59,036 bases of DNA from Thiomargarita sp. Lineage in GTDB: Bacteria; Pseudomonadota; Gammaproteobacteria; Beggiatoales; Beggiatoaceae. The translations under genes and the position numbers were made by a program. Each line of letters starts with the position of its first letter. Within the stretch, counting starts at the first letter, position 1. The notes below the pieces were generated by a model. The model was not told the DNA's origin and searched no databases. It was given only the letters and a program-made list of their open reading frames with translations. Shown here piece after piece: positions 1 to 58,746 of the stretch. Location: the NCBI GenBank assembly GCA_020720115.1, contig DYPD01000005.1, positions 1 through 59,036 of the forward strand, written 5' to 3'.

Positions 1-58
1 CGTGAGGCGTGAGGCGTGAGGCGTGAGGCGTGAGGCGTGAGGCGTGAGGCGTGAGACG
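1..58. repeat. Heptanucleotide tandem repeat (GTGAGGC)n
   Basis: About eight head-to-tail copies of the 7-mer GTGAGGC run from the window edge to about position 55, the last copy degenerate (GTGAGAC). The array probably continues outside the window. Arrays of this kind can change length by replication slippage. Confidence 0.9.
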
Positions 59-92
59 TGCTCGCGTCGGTGAACAATGGGTATTTTAAACA
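1..92 (-). CDS. Partial small ORF running into the heptamer array
   Basis: An ATG at 92 follows a good Shine-Dalgarno (AGGAGAA, 5 bases upstream), and the frame stays open to the window edge. It begins MFKIPIVHRREHV and then enters the heptamer array, which in this frame gives a 7-residue period (SRLTPHA). A 7-base unit changes the frame whenever a copy is gained or lost, so a translated product would be length- and frame-variable. No homology is recognised. The ribosome binding site is real in the sequence, but whether a protein is made is uncertain. Confidence 0.25.
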
Positions 93-103
93 TCAGGATT
101 CTC

Positions 104-292
104 CTAAAAAGATGGGTTCATGGATATGCCCACTGAGGTATGACGCAGTTCAAACAGCTCTCCTGTGTAGGTATCCAGTGGGCTTGTCCCTTCTAATACA
201 AATGCTTTTTGCTGAGAACAGCTAAGCGATAGTTGGCAGTAACAACCCGCCGGAAGGTTTTTGTTTTTTCGCGCCAATACGCCGCGCCGCAT
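104..292 (-). CDS. Hypothetical small protein (62 aa)
   Basis: A 62-codon ORF ends 11 bases before the ATG of the downstream ORF at 92, so the two could be co-transcribed. It has three cysteines (CYC near residue 17 and a later SCSQQ) and no signal peptide or membrane segment. There is no convincing ribosome binding site before the ATG at 292, and I do not recognise the family. It may be a relic or chance ORF in a region of broken genes and repeats. Confidence 0.22.
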   Translation of the reverse strand: MRRGVLARKNKNLPAGCYCQLSLSCSQQKAFVLEGTSPLDTYTGELFELRHTSVGISMNPSF

Positions 293-330
293 TGCGTAGT
301 AGCTGGCATGAGGAAATCTGGGAGCGGCTT

Positions 331-388
331 GACGGCTACGTCAGCCAAAACGCCGCATGGCGGCGTGGCTAAGCAGGCGCTTAGCCAC
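331..388. repeat. Cluster of three inverted repeats
   Basis: Three palindromes stand side by side: GACGGCTACGTC (331-342), ACGCCGC-atg-GCGGCGT (350-366), and GTGGCTAAGC-aggc-GCTTAGCCAC (365-388) with a perfect 10-bp stem. There is no T-run, so this does not look like a terminator. It lies directly downstream of the transposase relic and may mark the end of an inserted repeat unit. Confidence 0.6.
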
Positions 389-498
389 TCCCAGCGTTAG
401 CCGTTCCCAGCTAAATAGCCCATGTAGGTCGCATAAGCGAGCGTTTTGCGAACAAACCGCCCTAAAGACTGACGGAGCGTATTATTCCAGCGTTCTAC

Positions 499-522
499 AC
501 TTCGACAAGCTCAGTGCATCGC
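499..522. repeat. REP-like palindromic insert 3 in transposase relic
   Basis: A 24-bp insertion with core CTTCGACAAGCTCAG separates the AH and VERWNNTLRQ blocks of the IS1-type transposase. It is identical over about 27 bp, including flanks, with the copy near 14027. The stem is CACT/AGTG around a TCGACAAGCTC loop. Confidence 0.8.
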
Positions 523-597
523 ATGGGCTGTTTCGCCGGTTTCTTTGCCAACAGACTGGTGTGTTTCTGCTGGGAAAACCGCTTCGTATGCTTTCCA

Positions 598-621
598 GAA
601 CTTGTACTGAGCGAAGTCGAA
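598..621. repeat. REP-like palindromic insert 2 in transposase relic
   Basis: A 24-bp insertion sits between the codons for FSDY and WKAY of the transposase. On the gene strand it reads FDFAQYKF with no stop. It is a variant of the same element (TACT/AGTA arms around GAGCGAAGTCGA). Confidence 0.8.
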
Positions 622-721
622 GTAATCGCTGAATGTAAACGCCTTTTTATAGTCATCTCGGATTTTATTCCACAATTTGCGGCAGGTTTCAATTCCCCGT
701 TCACCAATGACAAAAGCGACT

Positions 722-742
722 ACGCTTCGACAGGCTCAGTGC
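722..742. repeat. REP-like palindromic insert 1 in transposase relic
   Basis: A 21-bp insertion sits between the RQAV and VAFVIGE codons of the transposase. It has core CTTCGACAGGCTCAG and AC repeated on both sides, compatible with a 2-bp target duplication. It creates the in-frame TGA at 736-738. Confidence 0.8.
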
Positions 743-1183
743 ACCGCTTGGCGAGTACGTCTACAAAGTGCTATCCACAGCCAACGCTTGTTACTTTTCG
801 TCAGCACGAAACCGCACAATTCGTCCAATTCAAGTGCATCCCTCGATTCGTAAGGCAGCACAGTTTCTTTCAGCGACGGCAACTGAGTGGTGTCTTGCTT
901 AAGCCACGCCGCGACGGTTTGTCGGCACGTCATGAAAATCCTTTCGACACTTCCGCAAACCGTGCATCTGTGAATAATTGTTTCGGATATCATAGGATAA
1001 TTCCTCCTTAGGTTATTTTTTTCTGGGAAATTATGTCTGTATCACTAACTATTTAACCACTACCGCGCTGGTTAATGAGAGATGGAATATTTGCCGCAAT
1101 AAGGGGGGTTTTCCTAACCTTTTTTTGGGCTATCTGTGCAATACTGGTGGCGGATTTTTACCACTACACAAGGAGAAACTCTA

Positions 1184-2317
1184 ATGCTGAAATCTGTTAA
1201 TACACTGTTGTTTTCTGTTTATGCGCTGGCGGGCTGGCAGGCTGTGAGTGCCGAGCAGATTCCCATGACGCCGGAACATTGGGAGATGTCGTCGCAGGCA
1301 TTTAGCTTTGAGAAATATCTGGAGCGCGATGCGTTGCGCCTGGAGTCTGGCGGTAGCGAAACGCTTGGATTGGTGAAGGACTTGGTAGCACAGGATGGCA
1401 CTTTAGAATTTGATGTGGCTTTCCCAGAAATGCGGGCTTTTATTGGGACTATTTGGCGTTTGCAATCGAATTTTGCAGACAGCGAGTTGTTTTACTTGCG
1501 TTCGCATCAATCGGGCAATCCTGACTCGATGCAATACATGCCCATTTACAATGGGTTAGATGCTTGGCAACTGTATAGCGAAGTGGGGCATTATGCGCAG
1601 GCGATGCCCTTTGATTTTAATCAGTGGACGCATGTTAAGTTGCAAGTGGCAGGCAATTTGGGCGAAATTTATGTGAAGGATATGGATAAACCCAAGTTGG
1701 TGATGCCTTTGCACCATAAGCCACAAGCCGGTATTTGGGGCTTGATGGTGGGGAGTGTGGAGAACCCTAAAGCTGCGGCGTATTTTTCTAATGTGAGCTT
1801 CACCGCAGGTACGCCTCAGTTGCACACTGCGGCGTTGCCGGTGGTGACGCCGGTTAAAGGCACTGTGATTGAGTGGCAAGTGTCTGATACTTTTGCGGAA
1901 AAAGATTTGGTTGGGACTCAATTGCCGGCTGCGCTGCAAAAAGCCTTAAAATGGCAGAAAGTTGGAGTGGAAGGTGATGGTTTGCTGAATCTGGCGAAAG
2001 TGCAGGGCTTGGCAGAAGATAAGGATACGGTGTTTGTGAAAGTGACTTTGCACGCTGATAAAGCGGTGGTAAAGCGTTTGGATGTTGGTTTTAGCGACCG
2101 CGTGAAGCTGTATTGCAATGGGCAGCTTTTATTTAGTGCGGATGATGCTTATAAATCCCGCGATTACCGTTTTCTAGGCTCTATCGGTTATTTTGATAGC
2201 CTGTATTTGCCGCTACAGCAGGGTGATAATGAAGTGTGGCTGGCGATTTCAGAAAGTTTTGGCGGCTGGGGCGTGAAAGCGAAACTGGAAGATATGCAGG
2301 ATGTGCGCTTTAAGTAA
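1184..2317 (+). CDS. Secreted concanavalin/LamG-fold protein
   Basis: The product is 377 aa from an ATG preceded by AAGGAG, which I prefer over an upstream start because it opens a clean signal peptide (MLKSVNTLLFSVYALAGW, cleavage after AVSA). Residues of about 60-210 look like a concanavalin A-like lectin/glucanase sandwich, with a DGTLEFDVAF strand, WTHVKLQVAG and GLMVGSVENPKAA. This is the layout of DUF1080/LamG carbohydrate-associated domains. The C-terminal 100 residues (KLYCNGQLLFSADD, GDNEVWLAISESFGGWG) resemble the jelly-roll module of glycosidases. I see no catalytic residues, so carbohydrate binding is inferred. The gene is monocistronic, ending at a strong terminator. Confidence 0.75.
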   Translation: MLKSVNTLLFSVYALAGWQAVSAEQIPMTPEHWEMSSQAFSFEKYLERDALRLESGGSETLGLVKDLVAQDGTLEFDVAFPEMRAFIGTIWRLQSNFADSELFYLRSHQSGNPDSMQYMPIYNGLDAWQLYSEVGHYAQAMPFDFNQWTHVKLQVAGNLGEIYVKDMDKPKLVMPLHHKPQAGIWGLMVGSVENPKAAAYFSNVSFTAGTPQLHTAALPVVTPVKGTVIEWQVSDTFAEKDLVGTQLPAALQKALKWQKVGVEGDGLLNLAKVQGLAEDKDTVFVKVTLHADKAVVKRLDVGFSDRVKLYCNGQLLFSADDAYKSRDYRFLGSIGYFDSLYLPLQQGDNEVWLAISESFGGWGVKAKLEDMQDVRFK

Positions 2318-2348
2318 GGGCTTTGAAGTTTTATAAGTTGGTTTTGCA

Positions 2349-2378
2349 TAACACCCCATTTTGGGGTGTTATCTTTTT
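2349..2378 (+). terminator. Rho-independent terminator
   Basis: AACACCCC and GGGGTGTT form a perfect 8-bp stem (2350-2357 with 2363-2370), followed by ATCTTTTT. It closes the lectin-fold gene. Confidence 0.9.
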
Positions 2379-2423
2379 AAAATTCAATCTATTAATCAAG
2401 ATAACCGGTTGGGAATTTCGCTT

Positions 2424-3350
2424 ATGCAGGCAACATTAAAAGACTCTGTTATTCTCTCTGCCAAAGGTTTTTGTATGGGCGCAGCCGATGTTGTGCCTGG
2501 CGTCAGCGGCGGTACTATGGCGCTGATTTTGGGCATTTACCAACGCTGGTTATTGGCAATTCAATCCTTTGATAGTATTTGGTTGCAGCATGTGCTACGG
2601 CTGCATTGGCGGGAAATGGTGACTTATCCGCATCTGCATTTTTTGTTGCCATTGGTGGTCGGAGTTTTTACTGCGGTGGTATTTTTTACTCGCGTGATTC
2701 CATTGCCAACTTTGCTGCACACGCATCCTGAGCCGATTTATGGTCTGTTTTTTGGTTTAATTGTGGGTTCGATCATTACGCTGCTGTGGGAAATTGAGCG
2801 GTTGGATTGGTCGGCTTATGCTTTTATGTTGGTCGGCACTTTGCTGGGTTGGTGGATTGTCAATCTTGTACCGATGACGACGCCGGATGCGCCCTGGTTT
2901 ATTTTTCTGTGCGGTTTTGTGGCAATTTGTGCTCTGCTGTTGCCAGGCATTTCTGGCTCTTTTATCCTGTTGATTTTACGCAAATACGATACTGTGATGA
3001 ATGCTGTCGGGCAGTTGGATTTCGCGGTAATTATCCCTTTTGCGCTGGGTGCTGTGACGGGTTTAGTGGTTTTTAGTCGCTTGCTGAGTTGGCTACTGGC
3101 GCATTATTATCGCCAAGCGTTGCTGCTGATTATCGGGATTTTGACCGGTTCGCTGTGGGTGATTTGGCCCTTCCAGCAGCGCACCTACACCTTAGCACAC
3201 GGCAAAGAGCATCTGATTGCCTCGCAACCACAGTTGCCTGTAGACTGGACAGCACAAAGCTGGTTGGTGTTGGGGCTGGCGCTTGGCGGATTATTGCTGG
3301 TGCTGTGGCTGCACCGCCTATCAGCTTCTCAAACTCACTCCTCTGAATAA
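2424..3350 (+). CDS. popT: PopT (DUF368) polyprenyl-phosphate transporter
   Basis: This 308-aa multi-pass membrane protein carries the DUF368 signature near the N-terminus (GAADVVPGVSGGTMALILG) and the second, related motif ALLLPGISGSFILLILRKY. These are the inverted-repeat P-G-[IV]-S-G motifs of the family. DUF368 proteins were recently identified as PopT, which returns undecaprenyl phosphate across the inner membrane for reuse in envelope glycan synthesis. I chose ATG 2424 over 2361 because the earlier ATG lies inside the upstream terminator hairpin and the DUF368 fold begins right after 2424. tolQ starts 13 bases after its stop, so the two are probably one transcript. Confidence 0.85.
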   Translation: MQATLKDSVILSAKGFCMGAADVVPGVSGGTMALILGIYQRWLLAIQSFDSIWLQHVLRLHWREMVTYPHLHFLLPLVVGVFTAVVFFTRVIPLPTLLHTHPEPIYGLFFGLIVGSIITLLWEIERLDWSAYAFMLVGTLLGWWIVNLVPMTTPDAPWFIFLCGFVAICALLLPGISGSFILLILRKYDTVMNAVGQLDFAVIIPFALGAVTGLVVFSRLLSWLLAHYYRQALLLIIGILTGSLWVIWPFQQRTYTLAHGKEHLIASQPQLPVDWTAQSWLVLGLALGGLLLVLWLHRLSASQTHSSE

Positions 3351-10813: not shown

Positions 10814-10923
10814 CACAACCCAAAAAACCCAATAGCGGGTAGTCTGACGAAAACATGTTGCATACAAGACACGATCCCCTACGAGAAATGCTGGGCAACG
10901 ATAAAGATGTTGCCTACCCTACC
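10814..10923. repeat. Composite dispersed repeat (blocks A, B, C)
   Basis: Three repeat blocks stand together. Block A (10814-10845, beginning CACAACCCAAAAA and ending AGTCT) recurs at 11576-11607. Block B (10852-10885, beginning AACATGTTGCATACAAG) recurs at 12044-12078. Block C (10888-10923) is an imperfect palindrome, GGGCAAC-gataaagat-GTTGCC followed by ACCCTAC. Such material fills much of 10.8-12.8 kb. Confidence 0.75.
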
Positions 10924-10962
10924 GGACTACACGGCTTCTGCCGAATGGTGCGGGGGAAATGG

Positions 10963-11226
10963 TTATTTGTAAACATCGCCTCTTGGACCGATATAATCCA
11001 CATAAACAGTCATTGAAGATTCATCTACCCAATAAATCACCCGCCAATTACCGACCCGTAAACGCCGATAACCCGCTCATTCCCCAAGCATAGGCATGGA
11101 ATGAGCGACATTCGCCGGATCAGTGCCCAATTGCCGAATAGCCGTTTTGATATGATCCTTCTGTCCAGTCGGCAGGCGTTGGAGATATGCCCCAGCGCGC
11201 TTATGGACAATAATGCGGTAACTCAT
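10963..11226 (-). pseudogene. RelE/ParE-family toxin with in-frame TGA
   Basis: The ATG at 11226 overlaps the antitoxin stop (ATGA). The frame runs 87 codons to TAA 10963 but is broken by TGA at codon 50 (11077-11079). Before the stop: MSYRIIVHKRAGAYLQRLP and HIKTAIRQLGTDP. After it: AGYRRLRVGNWRVIYWVD and VYVDYIGPRGDVYK, the typical C-terminal half of a RelE-type ribosome-dependent mRNA interferase. The codon affected probably once read TGG (GEWAGYRRLRVG). Because both halves keep the frame and good similarity, the stop is recent or a sequencing error. As it stands the toxin would be truncated and inactive. Confidence 0.8.
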
Positions 11227-11426
11227 AACGCATCTAAATCCACATACGCTTCCACATTACCGCATTCCCTGTCGCGGCGGGCTTCGCGTAAACATGACAG
11301 AGTGTCTTCGTCCAAGTCCCAGTCCAGGCGTTCAAGAATCTCCAAATACTCTTGCCAGGGTAAAATTACCTCTGTCGGCTGTCCTTGTGGATTGACAATA
11401 AATCTGGGGTGAATGGCTGCTTGCAT
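11223..11426 (-). CDS. Antitoxin of RelE-type pair
   Basis: This 67-aa acidic protein starts at ATG 11426, 7 bases after AAGGAAA. An upstream frame to 11492 lacks a binding site. The sequence begins MQAAIHPRFIVNPQGQPTEV and continues as an amphipathic, acid-rich helix region (WQEYLEILERLDWDLDEDTL). This is the pattern of antitoxins whose C-terminus wraps a RelE/ParE toxin. Its stop TGA overlaps the toxin ATG by 4 bases, so translation is coupled. The reading frame is intact although the partner toxin carries a stop codon. Confidence 0.7.
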   Translation of the reverse strand: MQAAIHPRFIVNPQGQPTEVILPWQEYLEILERLDWDLDEDTLSCLREARRDRECGNVEAYVDLDAL

Positions 11427-11538
11427 GTTTTTTTCCTTTCCCTCGTTCCCGTCGGGATGATGAGATCGAGAAAATTTACCGTACCAAGTCATCGGGTCAG
11501 GTCAGGGGGATTCGCATGGTTGATCCATATCATTGTAC

Positions 11539-11568
11539 TGTGGATAACCTCTTTTCGTCGCCCACCAT
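11539..11568. repeat. Block C dispersed palindrome, inverted copy
   Basis: On the minus strand it reads GGTGGGCGACGAAAAGAGG followed by TTATCCAC, the same palindromic unit as at 11612 and 12707 but in the opposite orientation. Block A (11576-11607) follows directly. Confidence 0.65.
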
Positions 11569-11575
11569 TATGTGA

Positions 11576-11665
11576 CACAACCCAAAAACCCTAATGGCGG
11601 GCAGTCTTTTAAGGTGAGCAATGAAAAGAGGTTGCACACCCTACACGGCTATCGCTTATGCGACC
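11576..11665. repeat. Composite dispersed repeat, second copy
   Basis: Block A (11576-11607) is followed by block C (11612-11645, GGTGAGCAATGAAAAGAGG then TTGCACACCCTAC). Next comes the trailing unit CGCTTATGCGACCTACGCG, which also ends the IS1 relic (as GCTTATGCGACCTACATG on its strand) and is found near 14075. Confidence 0.7.
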
Positions 11666-11687
11666 TACGCGGGCTTGGCTTATAGAT

Positions 11688-11909
11688 TCACACAAATTTA
11701 CGCCCTTCGCGGATAAAGCCGACAATCTCATCTGTGCTTAAATTTAATGGAATACTTTTTATATCCAAAGGCGATTTTTGGGCGTGTAACGGAGTCAATA
11801 TAAAAACCTGCCCATTTTCGCCGGTAATTTGTACACTGCCTTCTAAAGCAGCTTATGCAAAGATAACGGCTAAATTTTGTTGTATTTCTGCAAAGTTATA
11901 CACTTGCAT
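11688..11909 (-). pseudogene. Phd/YefM-type antitoxin with in-frame TAA
   Basis: The frame from ATG 11909 to TGA 11688 encodes a complete Phd-like antitoxin, interrupted by TAA at codon 19 (11853-11855). The N-terminus MQVYNFAEIQQNLAVIFA is the prevent-host-death start. After the stop the frame continues ALEGSVQITGENGQVFILTP, SPLDIKSIPLNLSTDEIV and FIREGRKFV. The family is a DNA-binding antitoxin for Doc, RelE or PIN-type toxins. No partner toxin lies downstream, only repeats, so this is the remnant of a lost pair. Confidence 0.75.
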
Positions 11910-11964
11910 AAGCGTTACTCCAAAACAGTGATACCGAGCGATTTTGCTGCATGTATTAATCCTG

Positions 11965-12110
11965 AAATGGTGAGCAACGAAAAGAAGTTGCACACCCTAC
12001 ACGGCTATCTATTTTTTGGTAAGTTGTTGTTTATGGAGACTAAAACATGTTGCATACAAGACACAATCCCCCTGCGAGGGCTAAACACGAAATGGTGGGC
12101 TACTAGGTGT
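11965..12110. repeat. Dispersed repeats, third composite copy
   Basis: Block C (11965-12008) is followed by unrelated sequence, block B (12044-12078), GGGCTAAACACGAAATGGTG and a truncated block C (12090-12100). The cluster ends a few bases before the stop codon of the intact RelE-like gene. Confidence 0.65.
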
Positions 12111-12380
12111 TCATGGAAATTTTTTATAAAAGCCTTCACGACTGCCGACACGCAAAAATTCAATAACCTCTCCGTCACAATAAATTCCAATACGGTAACG
12201 ATAATCAAATTTAATTCTGTAGTAATGAGGATAACCACTCATTTCTTCTAAGTTATCAATACTTGACAAACTTTCAATCACTTGCGCCTGAATCAAAACC
12301 TGCTGGATTTTTTCTTTGATTCGCTTATCGTTAATCGCAAGTGCTTCTTTTTCAAAACGCTTGCTAATCTTTATTTTCAT
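12111..12380 (-). CDS. RelE/ParE-family toxin
   Basis: This intact 89-aa, strongly basic protein begins MKIKISKRFEKEALAIND. It carries the RelE/ParE scaffold: a helical hairpin, IDNLEEMSGYPHYYRIKFD and YRYRIGIYCDGEVIEFLRVG followed by REGFYKKFP. The R-Y-R-I-G strand and C-terminal basic residues fit toxins that cleave mRNA on the ribosome, although ParE-type gyrase inhibition cannot be excluded. Its ATG overlaps the stop of the upstream antitoxin gene by 4 bases. This is the only toxin-antitoxin pair in the island with both frames whole. Confidence 0.8.
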   Translation of the reverse strand: MKIKISKRFEKEALAINDKRIKEKIQQVLIQAQVIESLSSIDNLEEMSGYPHYYRIKFDYRYRIGIYCDGEVIEFLRVGSREGFYKKFP

Positions 12381-12601
12381 TGCGCCAAACTTTGAATAAA
12401 CGCTTGTGTTTCTTTTTCGCTTAGAAACTCGTTTTCGTCTTTTGCTTGTTTACACGCCAAATAAAAAGCAAATTCTTCAAGTTGTTGGTGTTGTTTTTGC
12501 CACAACTCATTGAGAAATTCACGTTGCACGGCATCAGGTAATGTCTCATAAAGTGCGTAAAGACTATGAGCAATATTGGCGTTAGCTTGCAGAACAGTCA
12601 T
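12377..12601 (-). CDS. Antitoxin of intact RelE-type pair
   Basis: A 74-aa, mostly helical acidic protein (MTVLQANANIAHSLYALYE, then FLNELWQKQHQQLEEFAFYL and AKDENEFLSEKETQAFIQSL) is coupled to the toxin by ATGA overlap. Position, size and charge mark it as the antitoxin. I do not see a standard ribbon-helix-helix or Phd fold, so DNA binding is unproven. GAGGAG lies about 10 bases before the start. Confidence 0.65.
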   Translation of the reverse strand: MTVLQANANIAHSLYALYETLPDAVQREFLNELWQKQHQQLEEFAFYLACKQAKDENEFLSEKETQAFIQSLAQ

Positions 12602-12706
12602 TTTTCAACTCCTCTAATCGTTTTAATTTGCCGGATGAGGTATAGCGAATACGGAAAAACCCTCGCATTGCGCTGTTGCTTCATGCGGGCTACTTGCTAA
12701 ACACGA

Positions 12707-12790
12707 AATGGTGGGCAACGATAAAGATGTTGCCCATCCTACACGGCTACACGGGTTACGCAGGATACGAAGCGTCTTTGTGGAACGCGC
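12707..12790. repeat. Block C dispersed palindrome with trailing unit
   Basis: GGTGGGCAACGATAAAGATG followed by TTGCCCATCCTACACGGCTA is the best-preserved palindrome of the family: GGGCAAC pairs with GTTGCCC. It lies in the 281-bp gap between the antitoxin and the HEPN gene. That gap has no other recognisable feature except short hairpins near 12790-12850. Confidence 0.7.
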
Positions 12791-14026: not shown

Positions 14027-14066
14027 ACACTTCGACAAGCTCAGTGCATCGCAAGCTCAGCGCAAG
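14027..14066. repeat. REP-like palindrome, intergenic copy
   Basis: CACTTCGACAAGCTCAGTG (14029-14047) forms a CACT/AGTG stem, and with flanks it is identical over about 27 bp to the insert at 499-522 in the transposase relic. It is followed by a second partial AAGCTCAGCGC and then by the CGCTTATGCGGGCTACGCG unit. Confidence 0.8.
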
Positions 14067-14103
14067 TGATGCTATCGCTTATGCGGGCTACGCGGGCTAA
14101 CAT

Positions 14104-57176: not shown

Positions 57177-57209
57177 TTCTGCGCCCTGAGCTTGTCGAAG
57201 GGCGCAGAA
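57177..57209. repeat. REP-like palindrome with 11-bp stem
   Basis: TTCTGCGCCCT (57177-57187) and AGGGCGCAGAA (57199-57209) pair perfectly around the loop GAGCTTGTCGA. The loop is the core of the element found at 14029 and inside the transposase relic, while the arms differ. 57210-57497 holds nothing recognisable and is A+T rich. Confidence 0.85.
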
Positions 57210-57497: not shown

Positions 57498-58746
57498 TTA
57501 AATATTCAGTAATCCGACTATAGTTTCTTCAATTAACCGCAAACCACCCTTACCCACCACGGCTGCCATTGATTCACGGCTGAGTTTGGCATTCACGCAG
57601 GCAGTGTGCCAGTGTTCAAAGCATGCCCAAAGATGAGTTGGGTTTACTTCTAAAAACTGGTTTAGCTTTCTTTCTAAAAGACGAATTATCTTTCTTTCTA
57701 GTCGTCCTAGAACCAAGCCTACAATTAAACCGAAGAAAAAACCCACTAGGAAAGCAATAGAAACACTGAGGAGCGGAAGGCTAATAGCTAACCATAAAGG
57801 TAAGTCTTTAGCCAATCCATTGCTCAAAAGAAAAATTGCGACTGCGACTGCGACTGCGACTGCGACTGCGCCTGCGACTGCGCCTGCGACTGCGCCTGCG
57901 CCTGCGACTGCGACTCCGAATACGGCTACGAATGCGACTGCGACTGCGAATACGGCTACGAATGCGAATACGGCTACGACTGCGACTGCGACTGCGACTG
58001 CGACTGCGACTGCGACTGCGAATACTAGATAAATATGGAGTTTCTCTACTACCTTCTCAGGCAAATGCAATGTCAAGCAGTTTAAGATGAAGAGTGCTTT
58101 CTTTGCGATGAAATTGAATTTTTTTCGATACAAAGCCAGCTTGGTTAAAAACAAATTCAAATAAAAACCTAGCTTTCTCTGCATCGGTTTCGCTAGATTG
58201 ATATTGATTTGCCCATTCTGCGGCAAACAGCAGACTTTCTTCTTGCTTTACAAGTGTGCTGAGTTTAAGTTTTAACCGATGCGTTAAGGATTCTGCGCTC
58301 AGTCTTTCTACTTCGGGCAGTGCTTTTCTTACCCAAAACTGCGCAAAGATTTTTCCGGCGAGAAATTCCATAAAAGATTTATGCGCAAATTTGAAACTGC
58401 CGTTGCGGCTGACATCGGATTCTAATAAGCCACAGGTGCGCACGTCGGTTTTGATGCCTTCCAGGGCTTTTTCATAGCCTTCTTTGGCTTCTTGCAAGCG
58501 TTGGCGCAAAGGTAAGCGGCTTTTGCCCGCTAACACATCCCCTTGTTGTGACACGCTGTCGGGAATGCTGTTTACCAGTTGCGCGACCAGTTGCCCAAGC
58601 TGTAGATGGTTGATTTGATTGGGCAGTTTATTGACCAGCATGTACACCGCCACGCCTGCCATGAAGTATTCGCGCTCGGCGGGGTTAAGCTGCATGTATT
58701 GCGCGGGTTGCTCTTTGGCGGCTTGGCGTTCTAGGGTGTGACACAT
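57498..58746 (-). pseudogene. STAND/NACHT NTPase C-terminal part, frameshifted
   Basis: Two overlapping minus-strand frames belong together. The first (58746-58057, 229 codons) resembles the region after the NACHT ATPase core: MLVNKLPNQINHLQLGQLVA, then FKFAHKSFMEFLAGKIFAQF, the winged-helix motif typical of NACHT proteins. The second (58226-57498) continues into a membrane region: a Val-Ala stretch of about 60 residues coded by the hexamer array, LPLWLAISLPLLSVSIAFLV and GFFFGLIVGLVLGRLERKI. It ends in a helical tail. The frames differ, so one indel lies between 58060 and 58226. The P-loop NTPase half is missing. Such proteins act in signalling or defence; this copy is broken or misread. Confidence 0.65.
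57838..58026. repeat. Hexanucleotide array (GCGACT-type)
   Basis: About 31 consecutive 6-base units: mostly GCGACT, with GCGCCT, GCGAAT and ACGGCT variants, partly in higher-order alternation. All frames are open on both strands. In the gene frame (minus) it encodes alternating Val/Ala with occasional Phe and Gly, that is, a hydrophobic membrane stretch whose length changes by two residues per unit. Confidence 0.95.

Follow-up and report, generated by a model that had tools for sequence, protein, structure and literature searches.

The window, i.e., the whole stretch of 59,036 nucleotides from Thiomargarita sp. that was analyzed, carries near its start the relic of an IS1-family insertion sequence (Table 1), whose homology to IS1 extends to about position 1064 and whose 3′ end is lost. 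The minus-strand translation of 993..397 gives an IS1-type frame of 199 codons with two in-frame TGA, both of which sit within inserts. The original prediction of a transposase frame with three extra palindrome stretches was confirmed by alignment to intact IS1 transposases from a Deltaproteobacteria MAG (L068, 54%) and an Anaerolineales MAG (L069, 55%), together with the family members L040, L042, and L053. The Pfam DDE_Tnp_IS1 match of the relic is weak (E 0.005); similarity to the IS1 DDE domain and the end repeats, on which IS1 membership is judged, are both found. The predicted continuity of the frame apart from the inserts held in part, since the inserts are real but about 60 codons near the N-terminus, between the zinc finger and VERIF, are also missing, and positions 397–439 (the last ~14 codons of the frame) are not IS1. 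Degenerate dispersed repeats (GTTGCACACCCTACACGGCTA and GCTATCGCTTATGCGACCTACGCGGGCT) lie at 10814–12766 and 14071–14098 of the window and also abut the 3′ end of the relic (411–439). Elsewhere in the window, CGTGAGG heptamers stand in tandem at the contig end (1–56), and a TGCGAC/TACGGC hexamer array at 57825–58037 would encode a Cys-Asp rich repeat.

Relative to the intact IS1 relatives, the relic has three insertions, each of exactly eight codons (24 bp), located in the protein at RRTRQ^VVAF, SD^FWKAY, and TAH^VERW. Lengths of 21, 24, and 24 bp had been expected, and the two of 24 bp stood while that of 21 bp proved wrong; similarly, the boundary AH^VERW was recovered, whereas RQAV^VAF and FSDY^WKAY moved to RQ^VVAF and SD^FWKAY. 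Inserts 1 and 3 share one orientation and the form CGRTGCA-CTGAGCYTGTCGAAG-YG, and insert 2 is opposite to them with the 16-nt core CTGAGCGAAGTCGAAG. The core, allowing up to two mismatches, is matched four times in the window against 0.36 expected, and a chance origin is excluded. That all insert lengths are multiples of three is true of the three 24-bp inserts here but is no rule, as a different IS1 relic on contig C30 is interrupted at three sites, by a double insert of 48 bp, one of 24 bp, and one of 23 bp that shifts the frame; the multiple-of-three lengths reflect a fixed unit of ~24 bp. The 2-bp duplication suggested for the copy at 722 did not prove general, since a TG duplication would fit site 3 alone, where an insert ending in TG explains the sequence equally well.

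Table 1. Coordinates of the features in the window.
Feature	Position	Strand	Basis or further copies
IS1-family relic: transposase remnant and upstream end	440..1064	-	Aligned with L068/L069 and with copies C134 and C89
Insert 3, 24 bp, CGATGCA-CTGAGCTTGTCGAAG-TG, target CCATG^TAGAAC	498..521	-	Also in C134 and C89 copies
Insert 2, 24 bp, CTTGTA-CTGAGCGAAGTCGAAG-TA, boundary ambiguous by 1 bp	601..624	+	Also in C134 copy
Insert 1, 24 bp, CGGTGCA-CTGAGCCTGTCGAAG-CG, target CCAAG^TAGTCG	723..746	-	Alignment
Deletion junction GATGCACGGTTTGCGGAAGTGTCGAA, probably the scar of a fourth insert; C134 copy has GATGCACTGAGCCTGTCGAAGTGTCGAA	936..962	-	Alignment; interpretation conjectural
26-bp terminal repeat of the IS, GGTAGTGGTTAAATAGTTAGTGATAC	1039..1064	-	Also at C134 and C89 copies
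Another palindrome copy, nested in an older copy within a dispersed repeat (CTTGCGCTGAGCTTG[CGATGCACTGAGCTTGTCGAAGTG]TCAAAG)	14027..14053	-	
Long-arm palindrome copy, GCGCC-CTGAGCTTGTCGAAG-GGCGC	57181..57205	+	

Two further copies of the same IS were compared with the relic. The C134 relic is 94–96% identical and shares inserts 2 and 3; an 85-bp stretch that includes site 1 is missing from it, and a palindrome lies at its N-terminal deletion junction. C89 is a 3′ fragment of the IS that starts at insert 3. Because C134 shares inserts 2 and 3, those insertions pre-date the spread of the IS copies and happened in their ancestor. Other IS copies already holding the inserts had been named as a finding against insertion, and this is half the case, in that C134 holds two of them, yet both are still insertions relative to the family. 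The N-terminal junctions of the window and C134 relics differ, and the right-hand end GAAGTGTCGAAAGG is common to both. As judged from the sequence, a fourth palindrome probably once sat at G^TCGAAAGG and became the endpoint of two deletions, one presumably at GATGCAC repeats and the other at GAAG repeats.

The source genome (G000) is an assembly of 185 contigs, in which the family core is almost invariant and 15–16 nt long, CTGAGC-(TTG/CTG/NNAG)-TCGAAG. CTGAGCYTGTCGAAG has 172 exact copies in the genome and few or none in most relatives; the 15-mer CTTCGACAAGCTCAG has 120 exact copies against none for the reversed control, and among 144 relatives, it has seven copies in the same-genus genome G001 and 32 in G005 and is absent from most. 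Reading 145 copies with their flanks revealed three main forms, CGRTGCA-core-YG (24 bp), CTTGYR-core-YR (23–24 bp), and long-arm copies, in which the constant core lies at the exact center of complementary, site-specific arms, 20–37 nt at many sites, with no spacer (for instance, L088, L082, L113, and others). Such arms go beyond what simple insertion of a 24-bp unit explains; inverted copying of the flank by template switching is one idea for their origin. Pre-existing hairpins as targets of the long-arm copies were also considered and found unsupported in MetH, where the inserted DNA contains both arms. The genome also has core-based tandem minisatellites. Rfam gave no match in positions 1–3000 of the window, and a literature search for the core sequence returned unrelated papers, none on repeats.

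Copies are nested in one another, with a 24-bp unit set within CTGAGCYTG^TCGAAG at up to five levels, as in the five-level nest at C120:3290. In fifteen nested arrays, a (5,5) and a (3,3) among them, the left and right sides have the same multiplicity, and seven other arrays are clearly unbalanced, which indicates that slippage also acts. In a dispersed host repeat, the inner unit is absent at C115:36709 and present at C24, C138, C43, and C19; a second site in this repeat, GGCGGCGC^AAAAAGACGCG, is unoccupied at C115 and elsewhere holds a 23-bp copy. A MITE would have a target-site duplication and terminal inverted repeats in common with an IS of the same genome; at defined empty sites, no consistent duplication was seen.

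Palindromes also occur in frame within genes other than the IS relic, in the manner of Rickettsia palindromic elements, as had been proposed. Palindrome-built expansions of about 63 residues in LeuRS, about 41 in ValRS, 71 in MetH, and about 23 in PurL are found only in G000, and none of the alignable relatives, among them the same-genus genome, has one; the MetH expansion lies between two domains with both flanks continuous. LeuRS (L078, G000:C11) has tandem palindrome-built TELVEVNELVNSF repeats in its editing-domain region and two further copies. The claim that the palindrome is or was mobile is thus well supported by the insertions, the nesting, the unnested host repeat, and the in-frame gene expansions.

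Movement of this kind might involve no dedicated enzyme at all, if template switching and slippage at hairpins during replication spread the palindromes as a self-templated by-product. We regard this as unlikely: the unbalanced arrays, the minisatellites, the long site-specific complementary arms, and the deletion junctions that end within palindromes all fit it, but the clean 23–24 bp insertions into unrelated sequence, the fixed insertion point in self-nests, and a patchy distribution tied to one gene family do not.

That gene family encodes small GIY-YIG proteins. DNA comparison revealed a ~90-codon GIY-YIG gene between palindromes at C66:17725, bracketed by inverted copies at -53/+28, and this gene also adjoins palindromes in G005 and G079. 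Its protein is a minimal stand-alone domain with conserved Tyr, Tyr-Gly, Arg, His, and Glu. The palindrome-free family members that were searched gave UvrC-type GIY-YIG only or no match, and a DNA search with the C66 region returned only short matches in the same genus. At this locus (L172 1447–2580, G000:C66), the GIY-YIG gene reads in frame through its 3′ palindromes into a Cas4 domain (Pfam Cas_Cas4 E 1e-31, GIY-YIG E 9e-15), apparently a GIY-YIG-Cas4 fusion made by palindrome insertion.

The bracketing extends well beyond the source genome. An exact core lies within 300 bp of the gene in 11 of the 17 palindrome-rich genomes with a GIY-YIG gene, against 0.24 expected, often in plus orientation upstream and minus downstream. 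When the upstream flank was compared with the reverse-complemented downstream flank, 28 of the 32 loci across Pseudomonadota had an inverted repeat score of 29 or more, and 20 had one of 45 or more; four of these genomes supplied 3000 random windows free of N, of which 2.3% reached 29, none exceeded 41, and thus 0 of 3000 reached 45. The same test gave 0/6 for other GIY-YIG genes, 1/24 for IS1, and 6/19 for Y1 genes. The GIY-YIG locus of Methylobacterium bullatum (NZ_LR743510.1:513290-513547) scored 72 against a shuffled maximum of 28, and among the bracketed loci are some from genomes whose palindromes differ, e.g., CCTCATCCTGAGG..CCTCGAAGGATGAGG. Sampled stretches of G325, G230, and G521 did not contain the CCTGAG..TCGAAGG repeat, so the multi-copy status of the bracketing palindrome is established for some genomes only. 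GIY-YIG genes on plasmids adjoin an RNA methyltransferase in Sphingomonas parapaucimobilis (L246) and DISARM drmA in Planktothrix agardhii (L247).

Across 398 genomes of the phylum, a strong GIY-YIG hit (at least 93 bits) occurs in 15 of 24 palindrome-rich genomes (at least five palindromes) and in 12 of 374 others (OR 50, p = 3e-14; p 3e-13 excluding the window's own genome; shared ancestry ignored in both). Nine of the 15 double-positive genomes belong to a single family, and the three loci from which the profile was built were ones already known to lie next to palindromes. The remaining nine of the 24 palindrome-rich genomes have no strong hit, and the same-genus G001, with its exact 15-mer copies, has UvrC-type GIY-YIG only.

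The original prediction had looked to a RAYT as the mover, and the search for a Y1 transposase returned a single unlikely gene, IS200-like and situated away from the palindromes. Classical REPs and REPINs are moved by such RAYT/IS200-type enzymes, and the palindromes resemble REPs in size, hairpin form, and copy number (PMC3733652, PMC3116915); two of the IS1 target sites also read GTAG, and Y1 genes exist in most related genomes. We nevertheless consider a Y1 mover very improbable, as the only Y1 gene of the genome sits in a 3.3-kb locus with no palindromes on a contig of GC 0.35 (window 0.47), Y1 number bears no relation to palindrome number, the GTAG tag is absent from the element foot in the 145 copies inspected, and paired REPIN-like copies are not the rule.

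We lean modestly toward a joint reading, in which each insert is a copy of a very small mobile palindrome (core plus short flanking tails, about 24 bp in all) and the palindromes are mobilized by the small stand-alone Slx1-like GIY-YIG nuclease that inverted copies bracket. The role of the nuclease as mover, its cleavage site, and copying by repair are what we infer from this arrangement. The association itself gives no direction, and the gene could be a target or a passenger. It might belong as cargo to a unit bounded by palindromes, be a place where palindromes frequently land, or encode a repair nuclease whose task is to resolve extruded palindromes, in keeping with the nature of Slx1 relatives as structure-specific repair nucleases (PMC1564403) and with the absence of a strong GIY-YIG hit from some palindrome-rich genomes. 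A linked gene that does not move the palindromes is nonetheless doubtful in our judgment, given that bracketing by inverted copies is conserved across several families, even with quite different palindromes, and resembles an autonomous element with its own recognition ends.

For mobilization by the GIY-YIG nuclease, the following course may be envisaged. The candidate nuclease would act on the extruded hairpin and on G^T(A/C)G targets, either nicking or cutting them, and the palindrome would be copied into the target by repair synthesis. Copies enter DNA with no clear target duplication and, judged from few sites, with a preference for G^T(A/C)G; a site of this type is present in the palindrome apex (CTTG^TCGAAG), and copies therefore nest in one another. 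In dispensable host genes such as IS relics, insertions leave stops or frameshifts, and in essential genes, only in-frame insertions in loops and linkers survive.

In another genome (G064:C57, L168 about 1237–1779), a GIY-YIG gene of a different subfamily overlaps ORFs with peptides such as RHSGVCRNPG and AYAGMTR. Peptides of this type are typical of CGTC/dRS3-like palindromes, for which the G064 GIY-YIG is a possible candidate enzyme too. More broadly, and with confidence that falls just short of even, widespread REP-like palindromes (CTGAG...TCGAAG and relatives) can be seen as a two-part system with a bracketed Slx1-like GIY-YIG enzyme, in which ~24-bp hairpins are moved by cutting and repair with no transposase, and other nuclease subfamilies may serve other palindromes with no known transposase, e.g., CGTC REPs. 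If this is true, some of the smallest mobile DNA that we know of is driven by a nuclease that is not a transposase, and nuclease-driven palindromes add new loops to essential proteins. With a nuclease gene bracketed by inverted palindromes across Pseudomonadota, the question of the mover can be put to a direct test on a single gene and a single hairpin.

In cyanobacteria, the small dispersed repeats of Elhai et al. (2008) are reported to be 21–27 bp long, mobile, and inserted in other repeats and transposon genes; we know of no nuclease associated with them. The prokaryotic Slx1-like GIY-YIG nucleases (COG2827 type) share the minimal stand-alone domain with the protein described here, and nucleases of the Slx1 type are structure-specific (PMC1564403). 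Neither palindromes nor inverted repeats came up in a term search of that paper, and no report linking GIY-YIG nucleases to such palindromes was found in the limited part of the literature searched. Rickettsia palindromic elements (RPEs) are likewise inserted in frame in protein-coding genes (PMC10969869) and are set apart by their description, at ~150 bp compared with ~24 bp here. CGTC-tagged REPs, including RPE-4/RPE-6 and dRS3, are also in-frame genic palindromes whose dedicated transposase is unknown, and the enzyme that spreads them is an open question (PMC3733652); the core here differs from theirs, and the CGTC tag, the 8–9 bp stem, and the CCA tail of that description are lacking. There is also a likeness to REPs and REPINs with RAYT (TnpA-REP), which are short imperfect palindromes in tens to hundreds of copies with a presumed enzyme gene flanked by palindromes (PMC3116915, PMC3733652), and with 172 exact cores, the present family agrees with the description of a REP as an imperfect palindrome of 20–40 bp in high copy. 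In contrast to that system, the bracketed gene here encodes a GIY-YIG nuclease and not a Y1 transposase, there is no GTAG tag, and the copies are common within genes and nested in each other. REPs with RAYT, CGTC REPs with no known transposase, and in-frame RPEs have thus been described already, and the GIY-YIG nuclease is a new candidate mover.
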